From NCBI GenBank assembly GCA_003116975.1, contig BGKB01000005.1:67880-131879 (forward strand): DNA of 64,000 nt, in the 5' to 3' direction. The notes under the pieces were generated by a model. The model did not search any database. It was given only the letters and a program-made list of their open reading frames with translations, and was not told the DNA's origin. The position numbers and the translations under genes are program-made. This DNA is from Aurantiochytrium sp. KH105. Taxonomy: Eukaryota; Sar; Bigyra; Thraustochytrida; Thraustochytriidae. Shown here piece by piece: positions 15,928 to 41,303 of the stretch (positions within the stretch are counted from its first letter, which is position 1; every line of letters begins with the position of its first letter).

Positions 15928-16998
15928 TTACTCGACCTTCGACGCACACGCTTCAGTTCTCTTTCGCAGCTCGATAAAGATGGGCTTAAAATTGCGTGTC
16001 GTCTCCGTGCGAACTGCGTCGAGAAATGAAATGTCTTGCGTGGACTGGCGAACATGAAAACGTGCTGCCGCCCGTGCAACAAATAGCTCGAGTGACCTGT
16101 ACCGAGGCGGAGAAACGATGATGCAACGCGATTCGTGACCCTTTAAGAGATGAAAGATGGCATTGAGAAGGTCTGCATGTAGTTTGTTCAGATACAGACA
16201 GTCGGCGATGATGATTGTGTCGTATGTTTCATGCCCAACATAGTCAGCCTTTCGGTCCCAGAGAATTCGTTTGGTGGACACCACATGTTCAAGCTTGTTG
16301 AGCGATATATGGCGGTCTGCGAGGTCGAGACATGCCTGACTTCCGTCGCTGAGGCAGATTGTGGCTCCCTTTGGTATTTTACGTGCAAGCAAAAGACCAG
16401 CGAGTCCACAGAAGCCTGCGCCGAGCTCGAGTACCCGCTGGTTTGCAAAGTCGCCAGCGTTCAAGAGAAGATACGCGCCAAGAACCTCTTCCGAAGGATA
16501 CAACTTGAGCAAACCGGTTGTATCGACTTGATCTTCCTTGGCTTGCGCTCCAGCGTCATCGGCTTCCTCGAAACGCGGTCGCACAATGTCGACCGCGGCA
16601 AAGTCTGAAGCACCCGGGATCTTTGCCTCTGCTAGAGTCTCCCAGCCGGCAAACGTGAGTTTGGTGCCTTCGGGCACAACTTGGCGCGACTTTGCGAAGA
16701 GGCCTACCTCGAGCTCAGGCACGTCAACGAAGAGTTTGGCGCGGCTCGCGGAGAACACTGCGCGGCGCAGCCGTGCCCACTTTTCGTCGCGCGCTAACGT
16801 CGGTGCCTCTGTGGCGCCGGACGTTGGGGCCGTCTTCTCCATCTTTGGAGCGCATGCCGATCCGGTTGCAGCGAGCTCGTCGCTATCGCTGGTAGTAGAC
16901 GCGAGCGACGTTGATGGCGGCGCCGCCGGCGCGGGCACGGCTTGCACGTCGTCCATTGTGATGCAATTGCGAATGCTAGAATCGAGATTTGCTTTCAT
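15928..16998 (-). CDS. CAMKMT: Class I SAM methyltransferase, calmodulin-lysine methyltransferase-like
   Basis: 356 aa. A low-complexity N-terminal ~70 residues is followed by a methyltransferase-16-type domain. Visible: YPSEEVLGAYLLL, the SAM-binding motif I VLELGAGFCGLAG (~residues 188-200), the acidic end of strand 2 in LSDGSQACLDL, and post-motif DTIIIADCLYL. The YPSEEVL before motif I and the ADCL motif are those of CaM-KMT, which trimethylates a lysine of calmodulin; the wider family modifies other proteins, so the substrate is inferred. Spacing is extreme: its ATG is 34 bases after the stop of the ABC gene lying upstream on the same strand, so promoter elements may sit inside that gene. 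ATG at residue 15 (MDDVQAV) is an alternative start. Confidence 0.82.
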   Translation of the reverse strand: MKANLDSSIRNCITMDDVQAVPAPAAPPSTSLASTTSDSDELAATGSACAPKMEKTAPTSGATEAPTLARDEKWARLRRAVFSASRAKLFVDVPELEVGLFAKSRQVVPEGTKLTFAGWETLAEAKIPGASDFAAVDIVRPRFEEADDAGAQAKEDQVDTTGLLKLYPSEEVLGAYLLLNAGDFANQRVLELGAGFCGLAGLLLARKIPKGATICLSDGSQACLDLADRHISLNKLEHVVSTKRILWDRKADYVGHETYDTIIIADCLYLNKLHADLLNAIFHLLKGHESRCIIVSPPRYRSLELFVARAAARFHVRQSTQDISFLDAVRTETTRNFKPIFIELRKRTEACASKVE

Positions 16999-17032: not shown

Positions 17033-20000
17033 TCACTCTTTCGGCCCATCGACGAGGGCTTGGCGAGCGGCAAAGGTGTTGAAAATGTGCTCCAGCGAAG
17101 TCACGCTCAGACTGTAGCCGTCAATGCCGGCCTCCTCGCGGGCGCCCTCGATGATGCCAAACATGTCCGAGAGCTTCAAGTGATCCTGCGAGGGCAGGTT
17201 GAACCGGAGGCGGAGACCCACGCGCTCGAGAAGCTTGGTCCCCGGGAACTTGCTTTCCAAGAGCGCAGCAAGACGCGTGAACGAGCGCTCCACGAGAAGC
17301 CACTCGCCCAGGTTGCTCGCACGTACCGATCCACGCCCGACTGTAAGCTGCTGAAGTAAGGTCGACCCGCTGCCCTCGGCACGAAACCCTTGCTCGTACA
17401 AGTCGCGCGCCCCGGCCTTGTCCATGACGTCCACCACGCCATCCTGGGTCAACATGCTGTCGTTCGTAGTGCCGAACTCCTCGCCCACGACCTCGGACAC
17501 CTCAGCCTCGGACGGGACGCGAAGATTCACCTCGAGCTGGAAACCTTGCCCGTACTTGGTCTTGAGACGATGCGCCGTGCCCAGACAGCGCAGTCGGCCG
17601 TCCACCATGATGGCGATGCGCGAAGAGACTGCCTCAGCCTCCTCCATCGAGTGCGTCGTCAGCAAGACCGCAGTGCGCTTGGCCAGCTTGTTGATCACCT
17701 CGAGCAGGAAACGCCGAGCCGCCGGGTCCACGCCCGCACTTGGCTCGTCCAGCATGACAACTGCCGGCGTCGCAAGACTGGCAATCGCCACGCTCAGTTT
17801 GCGCTTGTTGCCGCCCGAGTAGCTCATGGCCAGCTTATCGGCGTGCAGGGTCAGGCTCATCTCGCGCAGCGTGCTGTCGATCAGAGGCTTGAGGGCCTGC
17901 TCAGGAATGCCCTTGACGCGGCCGTAGAACTCGAGATGCTCGCGGCCGGTGAGACGGTCAAAGAGAGCATCGAACTGCGGGCAGTAGCCGATAGACTGCT
18001 GGGCTCGCACAGTATCGGTGACGATGTCGTGGGTGTTAACGTAGATGTGGCCATCGGTGGGCGGGTGCTCGCCCGAGATCATTTGCATGGTGGACGATTT
18101 GCCAGCGCCGTTGATACCGAGAAGGCCAAAGCACTCAAACTTGCGAATGCCAAAGCTGAGGTCCTTGACAGCGACCTTGTCGTTCGTGAGCGCCGTGCCG
18201 GGGTAGACCTTGCGAGCATGCTGGAGAATGACGACATCGTCGCTGGTTGCTGAAGTTTTGCCGTCGTGGTTTCGCACGTCGACAGGCTCGATTCGGGCGC
18301 GTTCAGCTTGGACGTCGTCATCTTCGATCTCGTCGCCATAAGCGGGATCAATGATTCCCGATGCGGAGCCTTTGCCGGCCACAGATTTGTGACGTTTGCA
18401 TCGAGAGAAACAAGAGATTCCGGATCGTCCACCGGCACAGCACATGCCGTTGCGGAACTGGGACTGTAGGACAACGAGAAGTGCCGTGTAAGCAAAGGTT
18501 TCGACAATGAGATACACAATGTCGAGCCCTGCGACCCTTGTGCTAAAGACGCTGTAGGATACGGGGTTGCTCGGGTCCCCGCCTCTTTCTTCGCTGTTCA
18601 GCAGAAAGTTGATGATCTCCACATTAGCCACATTGATGAGCCCGTAGCTGAAGCAAAAGCTCGGAAGCAGCCGGTAAATGTACGTGAGGCTCTCATTTAC
18701 CTCGTACGTGCTTTCAATAAAAGACATGATGAAGGCCACAATGACGAGAACCATGCCGCCTACGAGATTGATGAGAATCATGCCGAACTGTGAAAACTTA
18801 AAGTTGCTGAACAAAAAGGTGCAGCAGTATGTGAAACTTGTGATGGAAGTGCCGTAAAAGAAAAAGATGAGAAGAACGGCTGGAAACTCACTTGTGAGCG
18901 CAGACACATCAAAGGCAAAAATGAGCGCCCAGGCTACAAGCATGGCCATGGCGTAGGTGCAAAAGTCAAAGATCCAATTTGCTGTCCAGTACGCGAGCGG
19001 TTTGATGCCGTTGAGAAGCTGCTGGTGCCAACTGCGTTGCTCTTTCTCGCGGACGATGAAGACTGCATAGTATGAAGGCACGAAGGAAAAGGCAATGGCC
19101 AAGCAGAGTGTTGCTGAAAACGCAGAAAAGCCTTGCCTGATCTCCGTTTCTGCCTTGGTTCTAGGCAATGGAAGATTTGATGTTGTGAGCGTCACAGAGT
19201 CGTCGATTCGCTGCAGCAACGCGGAATTGACACGATTCATCATCAGTGGAGCCGCATTTACGCCAGTGTAATTGTATGCAACGGTATACTCGGCCTCGAC
19301 GCCTGCGGCAACACCTCCAGCTCCCGAGCCAAAAAAGTTGTCTGGCACCACATCGAAGAGGAGGCCCGCATATCTGGAACTGGGAGAATCGTCCTTGGTG
19401 GCGAGCAGACGTTCCGAAAAGGCTGTTGTCGAGGCATTATAATCGTTGTCAGCTGTGCAAGCAGGTGGAACGCTGCCCTGGAAAAGACTTTCTACGGGCA
19501 AAGAGCCAAACCCTCCTCCAGTGAGAAAGTTAAGGAGGCTTTCGAGCTGTGCATTCAGCTCCACAGGGCGACAGTACGTTGTCGTCGGACCGATATCAGC
19601 AAATGATTGGCTTCGATCGAGTCGTGGCATCGATAGATTCCCCATCCACGCCGTGGTGGCTTCCGCAGAAATGGACTCGCCTTCACCAAGGTTGAAAGGA
19701 ATCGGATTGGGAAGGGGACCCTCGATATTCCAATTGTCTGTGTCTGGGCCAAAGGTGTAGGCCTCCTGGTCTGGATTAAAGACAGCCTTCATGGCCAAAA
19801 GACCAAGAAGAAGAAATGCCAGAGGCGTGCAGCACTGGCAGCACCAGGCAGAACGATCTCGCTTGGCGTATCGCAAGCGCTTGTGCAAGATGGCCCGCAC
19901 ATGGACTTTGCTGGAAGCGCCCCTCGTGGCCATGATCTCCTGCGTAGCTTCGCTTGGCTGGGCAAATGGCACCTCGACATCCTCGCGAGCCGGAGAACCA

Positions 20001-23000
20001 GCTTGTTCGGCTTTCCATGCTGCTGGAGCTGCTTCAAGATCAATCTTTTGAGCTTGGTCCATAGCTTGTGCATGAGGATGATCCGTAGACGACTCTTTGG
20101 TTGTCGCGTCTTTGGAGGAGTTTGTATCACCAAGTGTAAGCGCTTGTTCGGTCGCAGATGGCGCTGCGTGCTCTTGCGTCGGCGTGGCGCCTTCACGCTG
20201 AGCATTCTCTTGTGGGTGGGGATGCTCCGGAGGAAGCTCGCTAATTGCCATGCTAATGTTTGGATCAGCATTATCAAGCGTAAAGGCATCGTTGCTCTGG
20301 CTGGACGCGAGCCGGGCTACATTGATACCCGTCTTTGATCGCTCAAAGACGTTCTCCGCGCCCTCTGCCACGCGCAGAAACACGTTCTCCAAACTTGTCA
20401 CCGAGATACCCACGTTCACAATCCCTAGACGCTCTGCAGAGGCTTCGAGCTCTGCCAGCATGCCCTGGAAATTCGGTGACGCTGCCAGCGGAAGCTGCAA
20501 CATGATTTCCGTGCCCACATCGGACAGCACCTCCGCAGATGGAACATGACGTGCCACGATCGAGACAACCTCGAGTCGCTTCGCCTCGTCGCCATCGTCC
20601 GCCTTTTCGATCGTCATCTGATACCCGACGCCGAAGATCTTCTTCAAGAACAGACTCGATCCGATGCACTTCAGCTTGCCCTCGGACATGATGGCGATGC
20701 GGTCGCCAAGAAGGTCCGCCTCGTCCATGTAATGCGTGGTGAGAATGATGGTACGGCCCTCACGATGGCGCTCGATGGTCTTCCAAGTAAAAGTTCGGCT
20801 GTACGGGTCCTGACCGCTGGTGGGTTCATCGAGCACGACGAGCTTGCTGTCGCCGAGCAGCGCGATGCCGAGGTGGAGCTTGCGCTTCATGCCGCCGGAG
20901 AGGCTCTTGGAGAGCGTGTGGGTCTTGGGCGTGAGGCCAACCTCGGCAATCATTTCTGTGATTTTGGTCTCGGCTTCGTTAGCGGGCAAGCCCTTGACGC
21001 CGGCATAAATGCGGAAGTGTTCCTTGACTGTGAGGTTTGGAAAGAGAATGTTGTGCTGGGGACAGACGCCAAGAGACCCGCGAATCGTGGCCATCTCGGT
21101 GCTCACGGGGTGTCCTCCGATATAGACTTCACCTTGCGAAGGCGCAAGCTTGCCAACAAGCATGTTGGAGAGTGTGGTCTTGCCGGCGCCATTGTGACCG
21201 AGTAGGGAAAGGATTTGGCCCTCGTACATTGTAAAGTTGACCTGATTGACCGCGTGAATGGGTCCGCGTTCCGACTTGAAGGTCTTGGACAGGTTACCGA
21301 GCATGACACACCGTCCTTCGGCGCGAAGGTCCTGCATCGTCTTGGACACTTGCTCAAAGTTGGCAGTCTCGTCGGCAGCGAGGTCATTTTCGATCTGCGT
21401 CTGATTCGCAATTGCCTCGATGAACTGTTTCGAGTCGGAGATGCTTTTGCTCCGACGACGCAAGCAGCCGCACGTAAAGGGCCAATACCACGGTATACGT
21501 GCGGTACCAGCGCTCGAAGAAAGCGTAGCGTCAAAGTAAAGCGCGAGCGCAAAATAGAGAAGCGTGTCAATGAGAAGCATTGCCAAACAGTTTGCAAAGG
21601 TGAAGCCTCCGTTATTAGATGAACCTGCATTGTCCCATGTCAGCGGCACGAGAGCGCCCTCGTATTCGGCAAACGGGATTGTGCCGAGAGAAAACGCAGT
21701 GGATGGGATGAGGGAAAGGAAGATTTGCACGCCAACCGAGGCGGACGAATCACTGACGGGGATAAAGAGAAAGTAGCCGATAAAGTAGACGAGAAGACCC
21801 ACAATGATCGCCAGTGTTGTGCGCTCAAAGATGGCTGCGATGAAAAAGGCGTAGGCGAGAGACGACGTGAGAAAGAGCACAAAGTAGACGAAGATGATAC
21901 TCGGGGCCGCGAGTTGGAAAACGTTGATCATCGAGACGCCGGTGAGCACTGCCGCAACAATGAGGTAGAAGAATAAATAGAAGATGACCCACGCCAAGGT
22001 GTATGCGAGTGGATTGAGACCCATCATGAACATGAGTTCGCGCTGACCGGTTTCCTTGAGACTGACAAACTCGAGAATGACCATGGCCACGGGAAAGAGC
22101 AGACTGAGCACAAGGAAGATGGCAAAGGTGGACCCCGCTGCAGCCCAAAATGTGTCGCTCTTGTAGGCTGACGTTGGCATGGCAAGAAGATTCACGCGCA
22201 AGGTGGCGTTGGCGCCACTTGAGGATTGCGAGAGAATGTATGAATCGACCTCTTGTTGCACAGTAAGGAAACCTGACATGAGGTATTGCTGTGTATACTC
22301 GGTGGAGCTACGTTCGAGATCATCCGTTGGGGTATCGCGGCCATTTTGGATGGACGGCACGTTGCGTTTGGGTTCTGATCCTCCATAGGTGGCAGTTTTG
22401 TTGACGCGAATGGAGTACGACCAGTCAGGGGCACCAGACTCGATCACGATGGCGAGACCAATGCGCGGTTTTTCGGCGGTACCGTACTGATCCGAGGTGA
22501 TGTAATCTTCAAGTTGTTCGTTATCCTTGATGAGGTCTTCCACCTGATCAAAGCGACCTTGCGCGTCAAGAATGGGATTTTGCGCGCGCCAGTATTCGCG
22601 GAACTCCTGGGCAGCGATGGCAGCAGCACCATTGCGAAAGTTGCCGGGAATCACGACGAACTTGGGCGTTTCGCAGACGCTGCCGAGTCCTTGCGTGATC
22701 ACCGTCGAAAGCTCCGAGACGCTCGCATCGTTGATGGTTTCGGCGTCGCACACAAAGGCTAGGTTTGACATGCCGTGTGCGTAAAACGGCACCAAGTTCG
22801 CCACGTACCATCCGGGGGAGAGGAACTCGGTCATCTCTGGCACGCGTTGCGTTTCGTTCGCGTAGATGCCGGCGGGGAAGTCTTCCTCATCGGCGGTTGT
22901 CTTGATGCCCACAAGGGCGAACATGAGCAACACGGGAATGAGGATCTCTCCGAGCGATCGCAGTGGACTTCTCACCTTGAGAAGCAGCACGAGCCGCAGC

Positions 23001-23032
23001 TGCGACACGAGCTGGCCGCCAAAGTTCCCCAT
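17033..23032 (-). CDS. Full-length ABCA-type transporter, copy 1
   Basis: 1999 aa from MGNFGGQL; the frame continues 157 codons further upstream without an ATG that resembles the paralogue's start, so I cut there. Two halves, each with one membrane helix, a large extracytoplasmic loop and a block of about five helices (e.g. FAIFLVLSLLFPVAMVILEF) before an ATPase domain. NBD1: Walker A GHNGAGKTT (~613), signature LSGGMKRKL, Walker B VVLDEPTSGQDP. NBD2: GINGAGKSS (~1640), signature YSGGNKRKL, VVMLDEPSAGVDP. All catalytic residues are present. ABCA proteins move lipids or sterols across membranes; the substrate is unknown. A linker of about 100 residues rich in His, Pro, Glu and Thr (~bases 19960-20250) is absent from copy 2. 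Both NBDs are nearly identical in DNA to copy 2. Confidence 0.95.
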   Translation of the reverse strand: MGNFGGQLVSQLRLVLLLKVRSPLRSLGEILIPVLLMFALVGIKTTADEEDFPAGIYANETQRVPEMTEFLSPGWYVANLVPFYAHGMSNLAFVCDAETINDASVSELSTVITQGLGSVCETPKFVVIPGNFRNGAAAIAAQEFREYWRAQNPILDAQGRFDQVEDLIKDNEQLEDYITSDQYGTAEKPRIGLAIVIESGAPDWSYSIRVNKTATYGGSEPKRNVPSIQNGRDTPTDDLERSSTEYTQQYLMSGFLTVQQEVDSYILSQSSSGANATLRVNLLAMPTSAYKSDTFWAAAGSTFAIFLVLSLLFPVAMVILEFVSLKETGQRELMFMMGLNPLAYTLAWVIFYLFFYLIVAAVLTGVSMINVFQLAAPSIIFVYFVLFLTSSLAYAFFIAAIFERTTLAIIVGLLVYFIGYFLFIPVSDSSASVGVQIFLSLIPSTAFSLGTIPFAEYEGALVPLTWDNAGSSNNGGFTFANCLAMLLIDTLLYFALALYFDATLSSSAGTARIPWYWPFTCGCLRRRSKSISDSKQFIEAIANQTQIENDLAADETANFEQVSKTMQDLRAEGRCVMLGNLSKTFKSERGPIHAVNQVNFTMYEGQILSLLGHNGAGKTTLSNMLVGKLAPSQGEVYIGGHPVSTEMATIRGSLGVCPQHNILFPNLTVKEHFRIYAGVKGLPANEAETKITEMIAEVGLTPKTHTLSKSLSGGMKRKLHLGIALLGDSKLVVLDEPTSGQDPYSRTFTWKTIERHREGRTIILTTHYMDEADLLGDRIAIMSEGKLKCIGSSLFLKKIFGVGYQMTIEKADDGDEAKRLEVVSIVARHVPSAEVLSDVGTEIMLQLPLAASPNFQGMLAELEASAERLGIVNVGISVTSLENVFLRVAEGAENVFERSKTGINVARLASSQSNDAFTLDNADPNISMAISELPPEHPHPQENAQREGATPTQEHAAPSATEQALTLGDTNSSKDATTKESSTDHPHAQAMDQAQKIDLEAAPAAWKAEQAGSPAREDVEVPFAQPSEATQEIMATRGASSKVHVRAILHKRLRYAKRDRSAWCCQCCTPLAFLLLGLLAMKAVFNPDQEAYTFGPDTDNWNIEGPLPNPIPFNLGEGESISAEATTAWMGNLSMPRLDRSQSFADIGPTTTYCRPVELNAQLESLLNFLTGGGFGSLPVESLFQGSVPPACTADNDYNASTTAFSERLLATKDDSPSSRYAGLLFDVVPDNFFGSGAGGVAAGVEAEYTVAYNYTGVNAAPLMMNRVNSALLQRIDDSVTLTTSNLPLPRTKAETEIRQGFSAFSATLCLAIAFSFVPSYYAVFIVREKEQRSWHQQLLNGIKPLAYWTANWIFDFCTYAMAMLVAWALIFAFDVSALTSEFPAVLLIFFFYGTSITSFTYCCTFLFSNFKFSQFGMILINLVGGMVLVIVAFIMSFIESTYEVNESLTYIYRLLPSFCFSYGLINVANVEIINFLLNSEERGGDPSNPVSYSVFSTRVAGLDIVYLIVETFAYTALLVVLQSQFRNGMCCAGGRSGISCFSRCKRHKSVAGKGSASGIIDPAYGDEIEDDDVQAERARIEPVDVRNHDGKTSATSDDVVILQHARKVYPGTALTNDKVAVKDLSFGIRKFECFGLLGINGAGKSSTMQMISGEHPPTDGHIYVNTHDIVTDTVRAQQSIGYCPQFDALFDRLTGREHLEFYGRVKGIPEQALKPLIDSTLREMSLTLHADKLAMSYSGGNKRKLSVAIASLATPAVVMLDEPSAGVDPAARRFLLEVINKLAKRTAVLLTTHSMEEAEAVSSRIAIMVDGRLRCLGTAHRLKTKYGQGFQLEVNLRVPSEAEVSEVVGEEFGTTNDSMLTQDGVVDVMDKAGARDLYEQGFRAEGSGSTLLQQLTVGRGSVRASNLGEWLLVERSFTRLAALLESKFPGTKLLERVGLRLRFNLPSQDHLKLSDMFGIIEGAREEAGIDGYSLSVTSLEHIFNTFAARQALVDGPKE
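17043..18235 (-). other. NBD2 high-identity tract, ABCA copy 1 (pairs with 24245-25437)
   Basis: From the C-terminal end of the gene through NBD2, the DNA differs from copy 2 at only a few dozen positions by eye, including third codon positions. A small variable patch lies at ~17400-17480. Similarity breaks off sharply near 18236. Confidence 0.85.
20330..21360 (-). other. NBD1 high-identity tract, ABCA copy 1 (pairs with 27288-28318)
   Basis: Nearly identical DNA between the two genes, with a short variable patch at ~21110-21145. Outside it, the linker on one side and TMD1 on the other are clearly more diverged. Confidence 0.85.
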
Positions 23033-23115
23033 ATTGGATTGCTCTGCCCTTGCTTTCTTTCCGTCTTCGGCCTCCCAATCTGGACCCGTGCAACCGAGCA
23101 AACAACTTCTAGGCC

Positions 23116-23160
23116 CAGCAAGCAAGCAAGCAGGCAAACAAGCAAGCAAGCAAACACGCA
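23116..23160 (+). repeat. (GCAA)n-type repeat upstream of ABCA copy 1
   Basis: Imperfect GCAA/GCAG units over 45 bases, ~90 bases upstream of the start on the minus strand. Confidence 0.9.
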
Positions 23161-23185
23161 ACAACCCAGCAAACACGCAGACCCT

Positions 23186-23220
23186 CCCTGCCCTGCCCTG
23201 CCCTGCCCTGCCCTGCCTTG
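23186..23220 (+). repeat. (TGCCC)n pentanucleotide repeat
   Basis: Six or more CCTGC units in a row. Confidence 0.9.
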
Positions 23221-23524
23221 GCTGTCTGCCCGCCCGCTGGACCCCGGCCCTCGCCCGCGCAGGCTGCGCCGATTCCGCTCTGCGCGAGTGCGCCCGCCCG
23301 GCCAGCTGGCTGCAGAATTCAAATTCAAAAGCACGTTTCAAATCTGCCTGCACCGACGTCCCCCGGTCCGAACTTTTGTCCTCCTTGCTAGCAGCAGCTG
23401 CTTGCCTGCTTCTGCTTCGCCTGCTTTTCCCGCCTGTGTATGGCATGCGCGCTGGTACATCGCATTTCCCGTCCCGAAAATGGCGCAAAGTCCCGAGAGA
23501 CACTCGGCTCGCGCTCGCGGCATC

Positions 23525-23556
23525 GGTTGATTGATTGATTGGTTGATTGATTGATG
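23525..23556 (+). repeat. (TTGA)n repeat
   Basis: About eight TTGA units with one interruption. Confidence 0.9.
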
Positions 23557-24240
23557 GAGAGGCACGCGCCCCCAGATCCCGCGCGGCGGGCGGCCAGCTG
23601 CAGCTGCCAGCAGCTGCTCAGCGAGCGCGGGGCGAGAGGAAAGCAAAGCAAAGCGAGGCGCGAGCCCGTCGAGGCGTGCGACGGCTACTGGCGCCAGCGC
23701 AGGGGCAGAAATTGCGAACTCCTCGCTAGCCGCAGCTGCAGCCGCGTGGCCCAGGCCGCGGCCTTCCTGCCTGACAGTGAACAAGATGGCACGATGCGTG
23801 CGACACAAGAAGCAAGCCTTGCCGCTCGCATCGCAAGGCAAGAAAGAACCGGCCCCGCCTCGCGCCGCGTGAGTTGGACCGCACTCCGATCTTGAGACCC
23901 AGCATGGAAGAGCATCATAGCGTAGCACATGATCATCACGAGCGCAGGTCAGCTGCCAATGGCTGCTGTGGTTGGGGTCGCACGGCACGGAGCGAGGCGT
24001 GCGACGCGTGCCGAGGGAAATTACTTCTGCTGCAGCTGCAGGTGCTGGCTGCTGTGTTGCAGGTGCGTGTGGCAGCGGCAGCGGGTTCGAGGACCGGGCA
24101 CCTCGGCGCGAAAGCACACGGCGTAGGACAGAGGGGGGCAGCGCTAGCTAGCTATATAGCTTTTACTCCCAAGAACGCCCAAGAACGAAAAGATACTTCA
24201 ACTGCGATCTGCTACAACTAGGAAATCTAGGCAATCTTTT

Positions 24241-27200
24241 TTAGGCCCCATCGACGAGGGCTTGGCGAGCGGCAAAGGTGTTGAAAATGTGCTCCAGCGA
24301 AGTCACGCTCAGACTGTAGCCGTCAATGCCGGCCTCCTCGCGGGCGCCCTCGATGATGCCAAACATGTCCGAGAGCTTCAAGTGATCCTGCGAGGGCAGG
24401 TTGAACCGGAGGCGGAGACCCACGCGCTCGAGCAGCTTGGTCCCCGGGAACTTGCTTTCCAAGAGCGCAGCAAGACGCGTGAACGAGCGCTCCACGAGAA
24501 GCCACTCGCCCAGGTTGCTCGCACGTACCGATCCACGCCCGACTGTAAGCTGCTGAAGCAAGGTCGACCCGCTGCCCTCGGCACGAAACCCTTGCTCGTA
24601 CAAGTCGTGTGCCCCGGCCTTGTCCATCACATCCACCACGTCGTCCTGGGTCAACATGTCGTCGTCCGTCATGCCAAACTCCTCGCCCACGACCTCGGAC
24701 ACCTCGGCCTCGGACGGGACGCGAAGATTCACCTCGAGCTGGAAACCTTGCCCGTACTTGGTCTTGAGACGATGCGCCGTGCCCAGACAGCGCAAACGGC
24801 CGTCCACCATGATGGCGATGCGCGAAGAGACTGCCTCAGCCTCCTCCATCGAGTGCGTCGTCAGCAAGACCGCAGTGCGCTTGGCCAGCTTGTTGATCAC
24901 CTCGAGCAGGAAACGCCGAGCCGCCGGGTCCACGCCCGCACTTGGCTCGTCCAACATAACAACTGCCGGCGTCGCAAGACTGGCAATCGCCACGCTAAGT
25001 TTGCGCTTGTTGCCGCCCGAGTAGCTCATGGCCAGCTTATCGGCGTGCAGGGTCAGGCTCATCTCGCGCAGCGTGCTGTCGATCAGAGGCTTGAGGGCCT
25101 GCTCAGGAATGCCCTTGACGCGGCCGTAGAACTCGAGATGCTCGCGGCCGGTGAGACGGTCAAAGAGAGCATCGAACTGCGGGCAGTAGCCGATAGACTG
25201 CTGGGCTCGCACAGTATCGGTGACGATGTCGTGGGAGTTCACGTAGATGTGGCCATCGGTGGGCGGGTGCTCGCCCGAGATCATTTGCATGGTGGATGAT
25301 TTGCCAGCGCCGTTGATACCGAGAAGGCCAAAGCACTCAAACTTGCGAATGCCAAAGCTGAGGTCCTTGACAGCGACCTTGTCGTTCGTGAGCGCCGTGC
25401 CGGGGTAGACCTTGCGAGCATGCTGGAGAATGACGATATCATCGCCATTGGAGAGCTTTTCATCGCTCTTTGCATCAATGGGCTCCACACGATTGCGCTC
25501 AGCTTGGACGTCGTCGTCCTCAATCTCATCGCCATAAGCTGGATTCGCAGTTGACACGCTTTGGTGGGGAAGCGTCTTGGGCCGTCGATTGCAAAAGTTT
25601 ACACGACTACACAGACTCCGTGCCCCGCTCAAGCAACCGCGAGGCAGACACATGCCGTTGCGGAAACGCATTTGCAGCAGCACCAGCAGTGCCGTAAAGA
25701 CCACAGTTTCCACGCCCAGGTACACCATGTCGTAGCCTGCAATCTCGGGGCTAAAAACGCCGTACTGGACAGGATTGAGCGGATCGCCACCTCGTGCTGC
25801 GGTATTGAGCAAAAGATTGGTGGTCTCCACATTGGCAATTCCCATGAGGCCATAGCTGAAGCAAAAGCTTGGAAAGAGACGATACACAAAGACAAGGCTG
25901 TCGTTGATCTCCCAAGTGGTGTCAATAAAGGACATGATGGAGGCCACAATCACGAGAACCATGCCGCCCACAAGATTGATGACGATCATGCCGAACTGCG
26001 AGTACTTGAAGTTGTCGAAAAGAAATGTGCAGCAATATGTAAAGCTTGTAATGGCCGTGCCGTAAAGGATAAAGACGAGGGCCACCGCGCCAAATTCTGT
26101 TGTAAAGGCAGACACATCAAAGGCAAAGATGAGTCCCCAGGCAACTGCCATGGCCACCACGTAGGTGCAAAAGTCAAAGATCCAATTTGCCGTCCAGTAC
26201 GCAAGTGGTTTGATGCCGTTGAGAAGCTGCTGGTGCCAACTGCGCTGCTCCTTTTCGCGGACGATAAAGACTGCATAGTAAGAAGGCACAAAGGAAAAGG
26301 CAATGGCCAAGCAGAGAGCGGCAGACAGGCCAGAGAATCCTGCGCGAATCTGGTCCTCCGCTTTCGTGTTCGGAAAGGGAAGACTCGAAGCTGTCAAACT
26401 AGCCGCACCATTTAGTCGCTGCAGCATTGCTGCATTTGCTCGATTCATCATCAACGGAGCCGCATTCACACCCGTGAAATTGAACACGATTGTATACTCC
26501 GCATCAAAATCCGAACCGCTTCCGCCACTTCCAGAACCAAACAAGCTGTCGGGCACCACGTCAAAGAGGAGGCCTCCATAACGAGACCCTGGTGACTCAG
26601 TCATGGTGGCGAGTAGACGCTCCGAAAACGCCATTGCGCTCGCATTGTATTCGCTACCCGCCGTACAAGAGGCAGGAACACTTCCTCCGATGTACGCATC
26701 GAGAGATCCGGCAGGAAGTTCGCTGCCTATAAGTGTCGTAAGAAACAAAGAAATTTGCGCATCCAAGGCAGCAGGCCGGCAATACGTTGTCGTGGCACCG
26801 ATTTCGTCGAAACCTTGGCTTCGGTCTAAACGTGGCATGGTCAAATTGCTCATCCAGGCCGTCGTTGCCGCGTTAGAGATTGACTCGCCCTCACCCAGAT
26901 TAAAGGGCACAGGATTTGCCAAGTCGTCGTCTGTGTTCCAGTCATCCGTCGTTGCACTGAAAGTGTATGCCTTTGCAGTCCTATCAAAGGTTGCCTGCAT
27001 CACTGCGAGGCCAATGAGTAAGAATATCAAAGGAATCAAACATTGGCAGCAAAACGCTGCACGATCCCGTCGAACGTAACGCAGGCGCTTTTGCAAAATG
27101 GCGCGGACATGAATTGCATTGGAACCGGCGCGACTCGCCTGAATTTCGCGCATTGCGTCATCCATTGGAACATGTACAGCATCGCCATCTTCCTCGTCGT

Positions 27201-29982
27201 GGGCCGCCCCTTTGATTGCACTGACATGAAAAGGAGACTGGTCGATTTCGCCCGAAGCCAGACGACTCACGTTGATGCCTGACTTGGATCGCTCAAAGAC
27301 GTTCTCCGCGCCCTCTGCCACGCGCAGAAACACGTTCTCCAAACTTGTCACCGAGATACCCACGTTCACAATCCCTAGACGCTCTGCAGAGGCTTCGAGC
27401 TCTGCCAACATGCGCTGGAACTTTGGCGACGCTGCCAGCGGAAGCTGCAGCATGATCTCCGTGCCCACATCAGACAGCACCTCCGCAGATGGGACATGAC
27501 GTGCCACGATCGAGACAACCTCGAGTCGCTTCGCCTCGTCGCCATCGTCCGCCTTTTCGATTGTCATCTGATACCCGACGCCAAAGATCTTCTTCAAGAA
27601 CAGACTCGATCCGATGCACTTCAGCTTGCCCTCGGACATGATGGCGATGCGGTCGCCAAGAAGGTCCGCCTCGTCCATGTAATGCGTGGTGAGAATGATG
27701 GTACGGCCCTCACGATGGCGCTCGATGGTCTTCCAAGTAAAAGTCCGGCTGTACGGGTCCTGACCGCTGGTGGGTTCATCGAGCACGACGAGCTTGCTGT
27801 CGCCGAGCAGCGCGATGCCGAGGTGGAGCTTGCGCTTCATGCCGCCGGAGAGGCTCTTGGAGAGCGTGTGGGTCTTGGGCGTGAGGCCAACCTCGGCAAT
27901 CATTTCTGTGATTTTGGTCTCGGCTTCGTTAGCGGGCAAGCCCTTGACGCCGGCATAAATGCGAAAGTGTTCCTTGACTGTGAGGTTTGGAAAGAGAATG
28001 TTGTGCTGGGGACAGACGCCAAGAGACCCGCGAATCGCGGCCATCTCGGTGCTCACGGCTCGGCCGCCAATATAAGCCTCGCCATGAGAAGGCGGCAACT
28101 TGCCAACAAGCATGTTGGAGAGTGTGGTCTTGCCGGCGCCATTGTGACCGAGTAGGGAAAGGATTTGGCCCTCGTACATTGTAAAGTTGGCCTGATTGAC
28201 CGCGTGAATGGGTCCGCGTTCCGACTTGAAGGTCTTGGACAGGTTACTGAGCATGACACACCGTCCTTCGGCGCGAAGGTCCTCCATCGTCTTGGACACT
28301 TGCTCAAAGTTGGCAGTCTCGTCGTCGGCGAGGTCTTTCTCCACCTCGGCCTGATGCTCAACAGCCCGTGCATATCGCTTGGCGTTGAAACCGCCCTTGC
28401 TCCGACGACGCAAGCAGCCGCACGTGAAAGGCCAGTACCACGGTATACGTGCGGCGCCGGCATTGGAAGGCAACACAGCGTCAAAGTAAAGCGCGAGCGC
28501 AAAATAGAGAATGGTGTCGAAAATGAGCATACCAAGGCAGGTAGCCAGTGTATAGCCTCCGCTGCTCGATTTGCCGGCATTTTCCCACGTCAGTGGCACG
28601 AGAGCGCCCTCGTATTCCGAAAAGGAAATCGTGCCGAGCGAGAACGCAGTCGATGGAAGCAAAGAGACAAGGATTTGAGCCCCCACCGGTGAGGTTGCGT
28701 CGCTGAGTGGCGTGTAGAGAAAGTAGCCGATAAAGTAGACGAGAAGACCCACAATGCAAGCCAGTGTTGTGCGCTCAAAGATAGCCGCGATGAAAAAGGC
28801 GTAGGCGAGAGACGACGTGAGAAAGAGCACAAAGTAGACGAAGATGACGCTCGGGGCTGCAAGCTGGAAAACGTTGATCATCGACACACCTGTGAGCACC
28901 GCGGCAACAATAATGTAGAAAAAGACGTAGAAGATCACTCTGGCGAGCGTGTAGGCCAGCGGATGGAGGCCCATCATGAACATGAGCTCGCGTTGGCCCG
29001 TTTCCTTGAGGCTGACAAACTCGAGAATGACCATGGCCACGGGAAAGAGCAGACTAAGCACGAGAAAAATCGCAAAAGATGAGCCTGCTGATGCCCAAAA
29101 GGTGTCCGTCTTGTACGCCGGGGTTGGCATGGCAAGGAGATTCACGCGCAAGGTGGCGTTGGCGCCCCCCGCACTCTGCGAGAGAATGTACGAATCAATC
29201 TCTTGCTGCACCGTGAGAAAGCCCGACATTAGATACTGCTGCGTGTAATCTGTGGTGCTGCGCTCGAGGTCATCGGTCGCCCCGGAAACATCGAGACTAT
29301 TCGGGATATTGTTGTCCCGCTCGACAGCGTCGCGATACGAGGATCGATTCACGCGGATCGAATATGACCAGTCTGGGGCTCCAGACTCAAACACGACGGC
29401 CAGACCGAGCCTAGGTTTGTCTCCAGACCCGTAGTCGTCTGATTGAATGTAGTTGTTCAAGTCTTCATTGTCGCCAATTGCATCCTGCGCGCCCTCGAAT
29501 CGACCCTGCGTTGTCAGTGTCGGGTTTTCGGTCGTCCAGTAGCTCAAGAACTCCTCTGCGGCCTGAACCTGCTCGCTGTTGCCAGCGTCCTGCGGGATCA
29601 CAATAAATTTGGGCGTCTCGCACAGGCTTCCCAGTCCTGCGGAGAAGAGGTTGAGGAGCTCCGCGCTGCTTGCACTTTCAATGTCGTCGGGGTCGCACAC
29701 GTACGCCAGGTTTCCCATGCCGTGCTGATAAAATGCGTAAAAGTTGGCGACATACCAGCCTGGCGACAGAAAGGACTCCATATCGGGTACCTGCTGTCCT
29801 TCATCGACAAAGTACTCTACGGGCATATTTTCCTCATCTGCGATTGTTTTGATGCCCACGAGCGCGAGCATCAACGCCACCGGAATGAAAATCTCGGCCA
29901 TGGCTCGCAGGGGGCTTCGCAGCTTGAGCAGAAGCACCATGCGGAGCTGCGAGACCAGCTGGCCTCCAAAGGTGGCCGTCAT
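24241..29982 (-). CDS. Full-length ABCA-type transporter, copy 2
   Basis: 1913 aa from the ATG of MTATFGGQL; stop TAA at 24243-24241. Same plan as copy 1: helix, large loop, helical block, NBD1 (Walker A GHNGAGKTT ~614, LSGGMKRKL, DEPTSGQDP), shorter linker, second helical block, NBD2 (GINGAGKSS ~1557, YSGGNKRKL, DEPSAGVDP). All ATPase motifs intact. It lies head-to-tail behind copy 1's promoter on the same strand and is the obvious tandem paralogue. Membrane segments keep high protein identity with many silent changes, while the first and second extracytoplasmic loops and the linker differ much more. That suggests the two pumps share an engine but may differ in cargo or control. Upstream lies 1.2 kb of repeat-containing spacer. 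Confidence 0.95.
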   Translation of the reverse strand: MTATFGGQLVSQLRMVLLLKLRSPLRAMAEIFIPVALMLALVGIKTIADEENMPVEYFVDEGQQVPDMESFLSPGWYVANFYAFYQHGMGNLAYVCDPDDIESASSAELLNLFSAGLGSLCETPKFIVIPQDAGNSEQVQAAEEFLSYWTTENPTLTTQGRFEGAQDAIGDNEDLNNYIQSDDYGSGDKPRLGLAVVFESGAPDWSYSIRVNRSSYRDAVERDNNIPNSLDVSGATDDLERSTTDYTQQYLMSGFLTVQQEIDSYILSQSAGGANATLRVNLLAMPTPAYKTDTFWASAGSSFAIFLVLSLLFPVAMVILEFVSLKETGQRELMFMMGLHPLAYTLARVIFYVFFYIIVAAVLTGVSMINVFQLAAPSVIFVYFVLFLTSSLAYAFFIAAIFERTTLACIVGLLVYFIGYFLYTPLSDATSPVGAQILVSLLPSTAFSLGTISFSEYEGALVPLTWENAGKSSSGGYTLATCLGMLIFDTILYFALALYFDAVLPSNAGAARIPWYWPFTCGCLRRRSKGGFNAKRYARAVEHQAEVEKDLADDETANFEQVSKTMEDLRAEGRCVMLSNLSKTFKSERGPIHAVNQANFTMYEGQILSLLGHNGAGKTTLSNMLVGKLPPSHGEAYIGGRAVSTEMAAIRGSLGVCPQHNILFPNLTVKEHFRIYAGVKGLPANEAETKITEMIAEVGLTPKTHTLSKSLSGGMKRKLHLGIALLGDSKLVVLDEPTSGQDPYSRTFTWKTIERHREGRTIILTTHYMDEADLLGDRIAIMSEGKLKCIGSSLFLKKIFGVGYQMTIEKADDGDEAKRLEVVSIVARHVPSAEVLSDVGTEIMLQLPLAASPKFQRMLAELEASAERLGIVNVGISVTSLENVFLRVAEGAENVFERSKSGINVSRLASGEIDQSPFHVSAIKGAAHDEEDGDAVHVPMDDAMREIQASRAGSNAIHVRAILQKRLRYVRRDRAAFCCQCLIPLIFLLIGLAVMQATFDRTAKAYTFSATTDDWNTDDDLANPVPFNLGEGESISNAATTAWMSNLTMPRLDRSQGFDEIGATTTYCRPAALDAQISLFLTTLIGSELPAGSLDAYIGGSVPASCTAGSEYNASAMAFSERLLATMTESPGSRYGGLLFDVVPDSLFGSGSGGSGSDFDAEYTIVFNFTGVNAAPLMMNRANAAMLQRLNGAASLTASSLPFPNTKAEDQIRAGFSGLSAALCLAIAFSFVPSYYAVFIVREKEQRSWHQQLLNGIKPLAYWTANWIFDFCTYVVAMAVAWGLIFAFDVSAFTTEFGAVALVFILYGTAITSFTYCCTFLFDNFKYSQFGMIVINLVGGMVLVIVASIMSFIDTTWEINDSLVFVYRLFPSFCFSYGLMGIANVETTNLLLNTAARGGDPLNPVQYGVFSPEIAGYDMVYLGVETVVFTALLVLLQMRFRNGMCLPRGCLSGARSLCSRVNFCNRRPKTLPHQSVSTANPAYGDEIEDDDVQAERNRVEPIDAKSDEKLSNGDDIVILQHARKVYPGTALTNDKVAVKDLSFGIRKFECFGLLGINGAGKSSTMQMISGEHPPTDGHIYVNSHDIVTDTVRAQQSIGYCPQFDALFDRLTGREHLEFYGRVKGIPEQALKPLIDSTLREMSLTLHADKLAMSYSGGNKRKLSVAIASLATPAVVMLDEPSAGVDPAARRFLLEVINKLAKRTAVLLTTHSMEEAEAVSSRIAIMVDGRLRCLGTAHRLKTKYGQGFQLEVNLRVPSEAEVSEVVGEEFGMTDDDMLTQDDVVDVMDKAGAHDLYEQGFRAEGSGSTLLQQLTVGRGSVRASNLGEWLLVERSFTRLAALLESKFPGTKLLERVGLRLRFNLPSQDHLKLSDMFGIIEGAREEAGIDGYSLSVTSLEHIFNTFAARQALVDGA
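24245..25437 (-). other. NBD2 high-identity tract, ABCA copy 2
   Basis: Partner of 17043-18235. Differences by eye include CGTGTGCC against CGCGCGCC and CCAACATAAC against CCAGCATGAC. The break is near 25438. Confidence 0.85.
27288..28318 (-). other. NBD1 high-identity tract, ABCA copy 2
   Basis: Partner of 20330-21360. Runs of well over 200 bases without a difference occur between ~27740 and ~27960. Confidence 0.85.
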
Positions 29983-32291: not shown

Positions 32292-33140
32292 CTTGGGTCC
32301 TTTCTCCCCTACCTTTTGCTCAGAGTCACACGACACCTGCTCTTCGCTCCCGCGTTCTTGCTCTTGCTCTTGATTCGCTTCGTTTCGCCGGCCAGGCCTC
32401 ACCGAGTTCGTCGTTCGCGTTTTGCCAGCCGAGGCCCGCCAAGTCTGCTTGGGTTTCCAGGCCACGGTCGGAATGCAAACTTTGGAAGCCAAGCCTGCCT
32501 TTCTTCACCGGCCGGCTCAGCACAGCGGTCAGCCGCCTGGCAAGAGCGCAGCGACAAGCACGGGGCAAGATCTGCTTGGCCAGACGCGGCAACCTCGGTC
32601 GTTTATCCCAGACGGGCGGGCTGGCGAGGCCGGCGCCGGGCTCCGCGAGGTCGATCGCAACAAAGAAAGAGAGAGAGAGACCTGCCTGCATGGGGCGCCC
32701 ATCGTGAAGAGACGGCAAGTGACTGTCTGTGAGAGCGCCTGGTTCTCCTCGTTAGGGCGGGCGCGCAAGCGAGCGAGTGCGTTTTTGCGTACGTGCTCAC
32801 GTGCGAACGATTCCATGACGTGGGCAAGGCGAAGGCATCCCGGTCTCCGACAATGTGTGTGCGAACTGCGGATATCCTAGCCCAGGCCAGGCCTTGTAGT
32901 TCAAGTTTCGAAAGTTTTGTGTATAAAAGTCAACGGATAGGTCACAACTGCAAACTTGCGAATGCGCGGGCGGCAGGACCGCGCGCGCGCGAGGCGCAAG
33001 AGAGACAAAGAGAGAGAGCGCGCGTGCGGGTGCGCGCGACTGTAGGCAAGGCTCGGGCGAAAGGCTCGGGCGAAAGGCTCGGGCGAAAGGCTTGGGCGAA
33101 AGGCTTGGGCGAAAGCGAGAGCAACCAATCTTTCGCTCCT
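32292..33140. other. Divergent intergenic region (oxidoreductase / SH3-IQ gene)
   Basis: 0.85 kb holding both 5' ends. The plus frame is open here from a GTG at 32793 and has an ATG at 32853, but the sequence is repeat-like and Arg/Ala-rich, so I treat it as leader. A 13-base tandem repeat precedes the chosen ATG. Confidence 0.55.
33048..33112 (+). repeat. 13-bp minisatellite, five units
   Basis: AAGGCTCGGGCGA repeated five times with a single C/T change in the last two units. It ends 28 bases before the ATG of the SH3/IQ gene. Confidence 0.92.
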
Positions 33141-35444
33141 ATGACGAGAACAGGCGCACAGCAACGACGCCGTCTCGATCGAATTAAGAGAGTAGACCCC
33201 TTTGCAGATGGCGTCGAGGCTCTTGTCAAAAATGCCGAAGCAACTTTTAAAGCTAAACAAGAAGCTGCTGCAGCTGAGAAAGAAGGGGCAAGATTAAAGG
33301 CACGCGAGCACCGCGAACGCATTCAGAGCTATCTTCGTCCCTCGGCAGAAACTTTGCCAAAGCCACAAGCGCGACCTTGGGCATCTCAAGCTGAAGATGA
33401 CCGACATTTTAGTGCGGAAGCAATTCGCTCTCAGCTCGAAAAAGAACAAACCCTATTGCAGCACCAGAAACGACAGCGGATGCGGAATAAAGATGGCGCA
33501 CAAAGCAACCGGCAAACAAAGCTTCCTGCCATGTCAAACAACGTTCAGGACCCTCGTACTTCACAGATGCAAAAAATGGCAAACCAGCACATCGAGGCGA
33601 GCACAAGATCGTTAGTCCGCTCGCATTCAACACAGTCCACCGACACACGAAAACGTTCACGTCTCGAGCCTGGAAAGACCAGCAAGAGTCGCCAACGTCT
33701 CCTCCGGGCCCAAGAAAGGGACACTCGGCTTGGGCTCACGTCCACGCGACTTGCAAGTTCACGATCATTACAGAGTCTATCCCAAGAAGCAAACACGACG
33801 CCAGCACAAATCTGTTCCTTTGTTCGCGCCATGCACCCACTTGATGCAGCCGAGCCTCTGGACCTTTCATTTCAGCGCGGTGAAATTATCAAGGTTCTTC
33901 GCGAATCTGAAGACGGCTGGAACTATGGCGAGAATCTTTCCACACACCAAAAGGGCTATTACCCCATAAACTTTGTCTCGCCCTGTGGTACACCAGAAGA
34001 GGAGGCTGCTCGGGAAGACGACGCGCTGCAAGCAGGCAAGATGGCGGCCGATCTTGCCGAAGCTATTTGCGAGGATGCCTCGCAGGAAAAACAACCAACA
34101 TCAATGCCTCAAACAAAGCAGCGAAAGCAAAAGCAGCAAAAGAGCCATCAAGCGGCAAGTCAGCAGAAATCAATGATGCGCGCCGACCATGCTTCGCCCC
34201 AACAATTCGTCAGAAAGGTCTGGGGCAGTGAAAGTTCGCTCTCTGAGCGGCACCGAGTACAACACCGAGTACAAGAGTCGACGTTCAATTCGAGTAGCGA
34301 AGCTGCGCGTGCAGCCACCAAAGTGCAATCAGTGCGACGGGGACAAGTCGCGCGACGCTATGTGCAAGAATCAAAGGCTGCTACGAAACTGCAATCTGCA
34401 AGACGTGGTCAAGTTGCGCGGCGCTATGTTCAAGAGTCGAAGGCTGCCACCAAAGTGCAATCAGTGCGACGGGGACAAGTCGCGCGACGCTATGTGCAAG
34501 AATCAAAGGCTGCCACGAAACTACAGGCCGCGAGACGTGGCCAAGTTGCGCGGCGAGGCGTCCAGAAAGAAACTAAAGCCGCAACCCAATTGCAAGCCTT
34601 ACGGCGCGGACAAGTCGCGCGGCGCAACGTGCAAGAATCCAAAGCTGCCACAAAATTACAGTCAGCGCGACGCGGGCAAGTTGCGCGACGCTATATTCAA
34701 GAGTCCAAAGCTGCAACGAAAGTACAATCGGTGCGACGCGGACAAATTGCGCGGCGACTTGTCCAGGAAGAAACTCGAGCCGCAACCCAAGTGCAAGCTT
34801 TACGTCGCGGACAGCTAGCACGCAAACGAGCTCGCAAGATACGCGGGAACTCGATTCCTTCAGATGAAGACGTGAGCTTGGAAGCTACGCTCGCTGCCAC
34901 AAAATTACAATCTGCTTGCCGTGGTAAGGCGGCTCGGAAGAAATTTCATGAATCAAAAGCAGCAATCAGAGTCCAGGCAGCATGCCGAGGACAGCTCGCA
35001 CGTGGGCGCGTGCAAAGAATCCAAAAAGGATACGAGCTCGCAAGCGGCGGCTGGAGCCAAAATGCAACATTTGCCGCCACAAAACTTCAATCAGCGCGCC
35101 GAGGTCAGGTGGCACGGCGCTATTACCATGAGACAAAAGCTGCAACAAAGCTTCAAAAATTTTATAGGAGCAAAGCTGCAAGTCTTCTCGCGGACGAATT
35201 CGACACAAGAGGAATCCAGCATTTACCCTCCACCACCAAAGAAGAACGTATGCGAATCGAAAAGTCCGAGATATGGGACGACGATGCAGAGGAGGAGCTC
35301 TCCTTTGTGGATGCGAGCGCTGTCCCAGCTCCAGTCCCGGCCTCTGTGACACCACTCAAGTCAACAGCTACAAGTTTTAATGTGACAATCCTGCCGGACA
35401 TCCCTTTTGTCGACAACTTTACCCCAGAGGAAAAAACAGAATAA
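33141..35444 (+). CDS. SH3 protein with an array of twelve IQ-like repeats
   Basis: 767 aa from the ATG of MTRTGAQQ. An Arg/Glu/Gln-rich N-terminal part is followed by an SH3 domain at residues ~223-283: AMHPLDAAEPLDLSFQRGE, then EDGWNYGEN and KGYYPINFV, with the usual Trp and Pro/Asn/Tyr of the ligand groove. From ~385 to ~685 come twelve units of about 22 residues built on ESKAATKLQSARRGQVARRY, a compact IQ-type motif (hydrophobic-Q-RRG-AR). Units 1-8 are nearly identical, the last four more varied. IQ motifs bind calmodulin or light chains, so this looks like a scaffold that could load many calmodulins; SH3 would bind a proline-rich partner. The array is encoded by 66-base DNA repeats. The stop faces the CaM-kinase stop 23 bases away. 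Confidence 0.86.
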   Translation: MTRTGAQQRRRLDRIKRVDPFADGVEALVKNAEATFKAKQEAAAAEKEGARLKAREHRERIQSYLRPSAETLPKPQARPWASQAEDDRHFSAEAIRSQLEKEQTLLQHQKRQRMRNKDGAQSNRQTKLPAMSNNVQDPRTSQMQKMANQHIEASTRSLVRSHSTQSTDTRKRSRLEPGKTSKSRQRLLRAQERDTRLGLTSTRLASSRSLQSLSQEANTTPAQICSFVRAMHPLDAAEPLDLSFQRGEIIKVLRESEDGWNYGENLSTHQKGYYPINFVSPCGTPEEEAAREDDALQAGKMAADLAEAICEDASQEKQPTSMPQTKQRKQKQQKSHQAASQQKSMMRADHASPQQFVRKVWGSESSLSERHRVQHRVQESTFNSSSEAARAATKVQSVRRGQVARRYVQESKAATKLQSARRGQVARRYVQESKAATKVQSVRRGQVARRYVQESKAATKLQAARRGQVARRGVQKETKAATQLQALRRGQVARRNVQESKAATKLQSARRGQVARRYIQESKAATKVQSVRRGQIARRLVQEETRAATQVQALRRGQLARKRARKIRGNSIPSDEDVSLEATLAATKLQSACRGKAARKKFHESKAAIRVQAACRGQLARGRVQRIQKGYELASGGWSQNATFAATKLQSARRGQVARRYYHETKAATKLQKFYRSKAASLLADEFDTRGIQHLPSTTKEERMRIEKSEIWDDDAEEELSFVDASAVPAPVPASVTPLKSTATSFNVTILPDIPFVDNFTPEEKTE
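34290..34830 (+). repeat. 66-bp coding tandem repeat (IQ units)
   Basis: About eight copies of a 66-base unit starting GAATCAAAGGCTGCTACGAA or close variants, alternating between two subtypes (KLQSA and KVQSV), which suggests duplication of two-unit blocks. Confidence 0.88.
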
Positions 35445-40665: not shown

Positions 40666-41303
40666 GCCTAGCCTAAGTGTTGTTTTTCTAAAGAACTTTC
40701 GTGATCATTTTCTCTATGCAAAGGATGCTTTTCATGTTTGCAGCGAAGTCACTTTGACCGAGCGACCGTCTTGAATCCACAACGCAAACCGAGAGTGCAA
40801 TGGGAGAAATAAAAAAAAGCGAAAAAAAATATGAACGTTCTGAAAGTTCTGGATGGGCGCAGAAGACCAAGCCCACACCGCGGCGAGGAAACCGCTTGTG
40901 ACCGTTGAAGCCCGTGGGGTCCGCTCGCTCGCTATGTACGTGGGTCTCTCTCTCTCTCTCTTTCTCTAGGAGTCGAAGGCCCGCCAATGCCAAGACCTTG
41001 AGGTGCTGCTGAGATCGCGAGGCGTGCGCTTTCCAAACAAGCACCAAGAAAGGTCCACCGCGTGCGCGCGAGGGCGCACAGATACGCTGTGCTGTGCTGC
41101 TCTGCGCCGCGCTGTGCAGGGCTGCGCTATACGCAAGAGCGAAGCGCATTGGTCCCAAGACGATAAGCGTACCTCTTTTGGCTGCTCGAGGTCGTGGAGT
41201 CATCCTTGAGAAAGCACCATCAAGCCTGAACGCAGAGACTTTTTGATATCGCGATAGATCAGCTTACCTCGAGAAGGAGGATCAAGACAAGCAAAGAAGA
41301 ACT
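40666..41303. other. Spacer between Mei2-like and IFT121 genes
   Basis: 0.64 kb between two genes on the same strand. It holds a possible AATAAA and a CT-repeat ending in TTTCTCTAGG at ~40945-40970, which could be a promoter element or an acceptor for a 5' UTR intron. No gene seen. Confidence 0.5.
40808..40813 (+). promoter_or_regulatory. Possible polyadenylation signal of the Mei2-like gene
   Basis: AATAAA followed by an A-run, 143 bases after the stop. Confidence 0.4.

Follow-up and report, generated by a model that had tools for sequence, protein, structure and literature searches.

Evidence that recurrent, mostly intrachromosomal gene conversion homogenizes the ATPase modules of two otherwise diverged tandem ABCA-type transporter genes in Aurantiochytrium sp. 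KH105

Domain-limited gene conversion is a known process. The closest precedent for the gene pair considered here, A and B of Aurantiochytrium sp. KH105, is the ABC11-ABC1 pair of Candida krusei (Pichia kudriavzevii), which the passage cited describes as tandem drug pumps under recurrent gene conversion (PMC6053246). Like A and B, the Candida genes are two tandem full-size ABC transporter genes whose likeness is kept by recurrent conversion, but they are described there as 98% identical members of the pleiotropic drug resistance family, whereas A and B are of the ABCA type and are homogenized in their ATPase (NBD) modules only. The family of the Candida pair is presumably ABCG.

Opsin genes, as excerpted from PMC3924837, resemble A and B in being tandem duplicates with ongoing conversion and with divergence kept where function differs. 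Their divergence peaks around one exon (exon 5), whereas A and B are mostly diverged and two modules are still being converted. For the zebrafish NLR-B30.2 genes, the relevant passage (PMC4852459) reports conversion that differs by domain, nucleotide-binding versus recognition, read from synonymous divergence as it is here; that family numbers nearly 400 immune genes, and these have NACHT domains, whereas the present pair are transporters whose ATPase domains are of the ABC type. In humans, the adjoining genes ABCA3 and ABCA17P, both of the ABCA kind, are up to 98% identical in separate stretches (exons 8 and 15), but one of them is a pseudogene, and in the excerpt GENECONV was not significant for the exons tested (PMC1579226). 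Among the literature matches listed (titles and the starts of abstracts), none described NBD-limited conversion in ABCA genes, and among those joining "thraustochytrid" with "gene conversion" only metal ATPases were found. Three papers (PMC8765293, PMC13059742 and PMC8544900) contain the search term in their reference lists only, and PMC11881565 was set aside as a conversion precedent, the passage in question being about loss of heterozygosity.

The DNA analyzed, here called the window, is a stretch of 64,000 nucleotides, positions 67880-131879 of contig BGKB01000005.1 (C5) in assembly GCA_003116975.1; its GC content is 56%. The assembly is eukaryotic and comprises 76 Mb in 367 contigs, i.e., about 38 Mb per haplotype when halved. 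The contig alignments suggest a diploid of which both haplotypes are assembled, or else a hybrid with two subgenomes. Contig C21, in reverse, aligns with nearly the whole window in five main pieces of 94.8-96.4% identity and one short piece of 85.8%. Seven more ABCA-like genes lie on contig pairs, as found with 25 of 187 candidates scored: C179/C53, C76/C14, C108/C44, C124/C137, C4/C187, C50/C11 and C35/C9. NBD 4-fold sites differ by 4-11% within five ABCA contig pairs, which suggests that the assembly keeps haplotypes apart. The copies of the two genes are named A1 and B1 on C5 and A2 and B2 on C21. A2 has an unbroken reading frame; in B2 the NBD2 part is shifted out of frame by one base, near contig position 593800, which may be a null allele or an assembly error, and an intact copy of gene B exists. 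The comparison rests on one genome, and its second haplotype takes the part that orthologues of related species would otherwise play.

Elsewhere in the assembly, matches to a PfaA-like omega-3 synthase lie at C72:305786-314912 and C155:166452-175544, at 930 bits against a family cut-off of 1010. The later domains of the PfaA model fall on other contigs, C61 near its start and C290 at 39390-42377; it is as if the assembly were broken within the PfaA-like gene, since the match on C61 starts at base 32. In the PfaA-type family at large, 11 of 14 control genomes have weaker matches and none has one above the cut-off. Taken with the GC content of the window and the size of a haplotype, the PfaA-like matches suggest a thraustochytrid, a group of which such a gene would be characteristic. 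Elicitins (PF00964) were looked for and not found, but as the 14 control genomes had no match either, their absence says little.

The two transporter genes are as follows.

17033..23032, minus strand: gene A, ABCA-type full transporter, 1999 aa in one open frame
24241..29982, minus strand: gene B, ABCA-type full transporter, 1913 aa in one open frame

They are arranged in tandem, head to tail and in the same orientation, B being the upstream neighbor of A. The open reading frame of gene A as listed has a GTG start, reaches 23503 and encodes 2156 aa. The start is probably at 23032 rather than 23503, because in the alignment with gene B the MGNFGGQLVSQLR of A matches the MTATFGGQLVSQLR of B. The pair is neighbored by a lysine methyltransferase-like frame (PF10294; window 15928-16998) and a zinc-type dehydrogenase (PF16884, PF00107; 31212-32492). 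An 883-aa frame with SH3 and IQ (calmodulin-binding) domains occupies 32793-35444 and contains, at about 34314-34813, internal tandem repeats that are 73-83% alike.

By Pfam, A and B each carry two ABC_tran (PF00005) and two ABC2_membrane_3 (PF12698) stretches in one chain and end in an R1_ABCA1 regulatory domain (PF23321; 28.9 and 29.8 bits against a cut-off of 27). In A, the best ABC_tran match covers aa 595-739 and the regulatory domain aa 1919-1976. A phmmer comparison of gene B, the one gene so compared, with solved structures gave ABCA3 first (E 2.8e-216), followed by ABCA1, ABCA4 and ABCA7. These four make up the top 13 of the best 60 rows (E <= 5.2e-190), the next row standing at 8.6e-38, and the ABCA3 alignment spans both halves of gene B. 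By domain content and homology, A and B are ABCA-type full transporters resembling lipid exporters. They are read as an old tandem duplication in what is probably a diploid protist.

The likeness of A and B is very unevenly distributed along the genes. A two-state HMM with hand-set parameters divides them into the following segments.

20339..21373, minus strand: tract 1 of gene A, aa 554-898, NBD1 and the stretch after it
27289..28323, minus strand: tract 1 of gene B, aa 554-898
17042..18232, minus strand: tract 2 of gene A, aa 1601-1997, ending just short of the stop codon and comprising NBD2 and the C-terminal regulatory domain
24244..25434, minus strand: tract 2 of gene B, aa 1517-1913
21374..23032, minus strand: diverged first half of gene A (ECD1 and TMD1), including two short blocks of low divergence; partner in B, 28324-29982
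18233..20338, minus strand: diverged second half of gene A (linker, ECD2 and TMD2), with one short low-divergence block; partner in B, 25435-27288

Divergence was counted over the 1888 codons aligned in all four copies, codons gapped in any copy being omitted. Between A1 and B1, 4-fold sites differ at 10 of 177 positions in NBD1 (5.6%) and at 8 of 214 from NBD2 to the end (3.7%), that is, at 18 of 391 in the two modules pooled, versus 208 of 400 (52%) elsewhere. The second haplotype repeats the pattern: A2 and B2 differ at 10/179 (5.6%) in NBD1, 4/215 (1.9%) in NBD2 and 206/400 (51.5%) elsewhere. Outside the NBD modules, the A-B dS is about 1.4 (Nei-Gojobori, with domain limits set by eye), and silent sites in ECD1 and ECD2, the exofacial domains, have reached or come close to saturation. 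The first membrane half, TMD1, is strongly diverged as well (dS 0.84 and 0.96), and in the second diverged half the linker of A is some 85 residues longer than that of B. On both haplotypes the HMM edges fall at identical codons (553/554, 898/899 and 1600/1601), and the last tract runs to the C-terminus. The homogenized pieces extend past the ATPase proper, and the second includes the regulatory domain.

This pattern bears out what the first-pass annotation had read from the letters, namely that the NBDs of A and B are nearly identical, silent sites included and with sharp edges, and that the linker and second membrane half are diverged. The sliding count of silent-site divergence it had called for is far from equal along the genes. 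Its NBD2 coordinates (17043-18235 against 24245-25437) agree with the self-BLAST match, 17045-18243 against 24247-25445, which is gap-free over 1199 bases at 97.9% identity; no BLAST match continues beyond 17045/24247 at the gene ends. For NBD1 it had paired 20330-21360 with 27288-28318. The near-identity stands, at 97%, but the partner in B was placed 8 bases off, self-BLAST pairing 20333-21360 with 27283-28310.

The four copies allow each variable site to be sorted by the pairs it unites. Among 5664 aligned sites, 990 are gene-type (A1A2|B1B2), 20 are cis (A1B1|A2B2), 3 are trans and 208 are otherwise variable. All 20 cis sites lie inside the NBD modules, 12 in tract 1 and 8 in tract 2; elsewhere, over 1148 aligned codons, 965 sites are gene-specific, none is cis and 1 is trans. 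A Fisher test of cis versus gene-specific sites in and out of the HMM tracts (20/16 and 0/974) gives 1.8e-32, a value that is overstated because the sites are linked. For the 20 cis sites to arise, each haplotype must have been converted since the two split, or one conversion must have preceded the split and another followed it; thus, conversion has been recurrent. The ratio of 20 cis to 3 trans sites points to exchange within a chromosome.

Permutation tests agree with this to differing degrees. The longest codon-identical run of same-residue codons is 77 on haplotype 1 and 142 on haplotype 2, against maxima of 52 and 46 in 5000 permutations. In a stricter, GENECONV-like run test on the silent codons variable among the four copies, the run was reached in 88 of 5000 permutations for A1-B1 and in 4 of 5000 for A2-B2; the cross pairs gave 165/5000 (A1-B2) and 2003/5000 (A2-B1). 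Hence a GENECONV-type check, which had also been proposed, comes out strongly in the form of codon-identity runs; the test on variable silent codons is weaker, and its result for haplotype 1 is modest.

Taken with the site patterns, these results make it very probable that recurrent, mostly intrachromosomal gene conversion homogenizes the NBD modules of A and B. In the proposed mechanism, non-reciprocal conversion, recurrent and mostly within a chromosome, would rewrite NBD1 with the stretch that follows it and NBD2 with the C-terminal regulatory domain. Strong protein constraint on the ATPase would keep DNA identity above what recombination needs, so that conversion could persist there, while the membrane and exofacial halves would have drifted below that identity and escaped. 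This passive account, in which ATPase constraint keeps homology sufficient for conversion, would be the most economical. Were the modules near equilibrium, the paralogue silent distance of 0.04-0.06 would mean that a site is converted some 15-25 times as often as it mutates, and that since the haplotype split each site has undergone about one conversion on each haplotype.

Base composition gives a hint of GC-biased repair. In gene A, GC4 is 0.742 and 0.797 in the NBDs versus 0.659 and 0.613 in the membrane domains. The NBD-minus-TMD difference is +0.084 and +0.184 in A and +0.051 and +0.158 in B, the first-half intervals of both genes including zero. Controls were taken from one haplotype of five non-tandem ABCA genes (C50, C35, C179, C76 and C108), the second half of C50 being left out and C124/C137 and C4/C187 omitted because no TMD match was found in them. 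In the nine control halves, the difference ranges from -0.100 to +0.011 and every interval includes zero, although the nine are not fully independent, as the halves of C108 share one TMD value and possibly one segment; the value for the second half of C35 varies from -0.033 to -0.001 with the rule for picking the segment. GC4 is also uneven along the gene, being high near the N-terminus too and not above average at aa 803-882 inside tract 1. The raised GC4 of the converted NBDs would fit such repair but falls short of proof.

Within the tracts, two short islands keep A and B apart.

21107..21148, minus strand: unconverted NBD1 island of gene A, aa 629-642, 42 bases, just after Walker A (HMM)
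28057..28098, minus strand: partner of this island in gene B
17405..17476, minus strand: weaker island of gene A after NBD2, in tract 2, aa 1853-1876 on haplotype 1 and 1853-1866 on haplotype 2 (HMM)
24607..24678, minus strand: partner of the weaker island in gene B

In the 14 codons of the NBD1 island, haplotype 1 has 7 silent and 5 amino-acid differences between A and B; of its 16 variable sites, 14 separate the genes on both haplotypes, and cis sites are absent. The weaker island holds 5 gene-specific, 1 trans and 10 other variable sites. If conversion acted evenly, the NBD1 island would be expected to survive about 1 time in 10 since the haplotype split and hardly ever since the duplication. 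Selection or local heteroduplex rejection may protect it, as the proposed mechanism would have it, or it may simply mark where tracts end. The HMM also marks low-divergence blocks in the membrane domains, at aa 310-327, 380-422 and 1309-1360, with 10 gene-type, 13 other variable and no chromosome-type sites; they are read as older conversion that has since stopped and faded, or as constraint.

The islands and edges raise the alternative that survives best, which is a version of the conversion reading with another cause of confinement: selection would favor identical ATPase modules and remove converted membrane halves. The edges do lie near module borders, and the NBD1 island, strongly diverged over its 42 bases, persists on both haplotypes as if its differences were protected, much as the divergence peak at opsin exon 5 is described in the excerpt (PMC3924837). 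Loss of homology alone would explain the edges, however, and the short blocks in the TMDs look like faded conversion, or constraint. Nor is there an amino-acid excess between alleles: outside the NBDs, the alleles of A have a dN/dS of 0.10 and those of B one of 0.11, which indicates purifying selection on both genes and gives no sign of adaptive divergence now. Confinement by selection is possible but on balance doubtful. A fuller version would be that two divergent pumps share one exchangeable engine through ongoing, GC-biased, same-chromosome conversion, with selection guarding the patch beside Walker A and the island residues letting each membrane half recognize its own ATPase; this combination we regard as unlikely.

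A single old conversion or domain transfer per module, completed before the haplotypes split and without recurrence, would produce equally sharp edges and equally low silent divergence. It is at odds with the 20 cis sites and with how few gene-specific sites are left in the tracts once the islands are excluded, 3 versus 12 cis sites in NBD1 and 3 versus 8 in NBD2, so that it retains only a slim chance. Just as improbable is unequal crossing-over in the array instead of conversion. Direct tandem repeats favor such exchange, and it is reported for the Candida pair in the passage cited (PMC6053246). Yet on both haplotypes tract 1 is bordered at either end, and tract 2 at its front, by gene-specific sequence, which would demand repeated double exchanges, and each of the two contigs has two genes.

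An assembly or polishing artefact, in which reads of the two NBDs collapsed onto each other, had been named at the outset as what could undo the conversion reading. The tracts are long and similar and B2 is frameshifted, and phasing or polishing errors may affect single sites of the assembly. However, each tract occurs in four distinct copies, spread over two contigs and each set in flanks of its own. Among the best candidates scored in two DNA searches of the assembly there was no orphan fifth NBD, the other matches being short and 69-81% identical. Collapsed reads might obscure individual sites, but they would hardly reduce a silent divergence of 50% to 4%, and cross-mapping should mix alleles as well as neighbors, which the excess of cis over trans sites contradicts. 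An artefact is therefore extremely unlikely.

Silent sites in the NBDs are free to change, as the alleles show by varying normally there: the allelic 4-fold differences are 13/184 and 16/182 in NBD1, 8/219 and 12/216 in NBD2, and 35/595 and 41/590 elsewhere, i.e., 3.7-8.8% in the NBD modules versus 5.9-6.9% elsewhere. The NBDs of gene A, moreover, differ from those of five other, non-tandem ABCA genes at 58-71% of 4-fold sites (nine comparisons). Together, the two observations mean that silent constraint is not the cause. Purifying selection that keeps the NBDs equal down to their silent sites, through codon use, RNA structure or antisense open frames, has thus next to no chance of being right, even though the NBDs are the most conserved part of the protein and long antisense ORFs overlap the tracts, since constraint also does not make variants common to the neighbors on one chromosome. 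The preference of the first-pass annotation for repeated conversion over purifying selection is upheld on these grounds and by the cis sites.

Under recurrent conversion, A and B show its confinement to domains with unusual clarity: on both haplotypes, silent divergence is near saturation in one part of the gene and at or below the allelic level in another. An NBD-based tree of tandem ABC transporters like these would make an old duplication look recent. The NBD1 island, for its part, is a hint at residues that may match the ATPase to its own membrane half. It is also plausible, because the exofacial and membrane parts differ most, that one engine with different loops might give the pair a wider range of cargo, as the first-pass annotation proposed.
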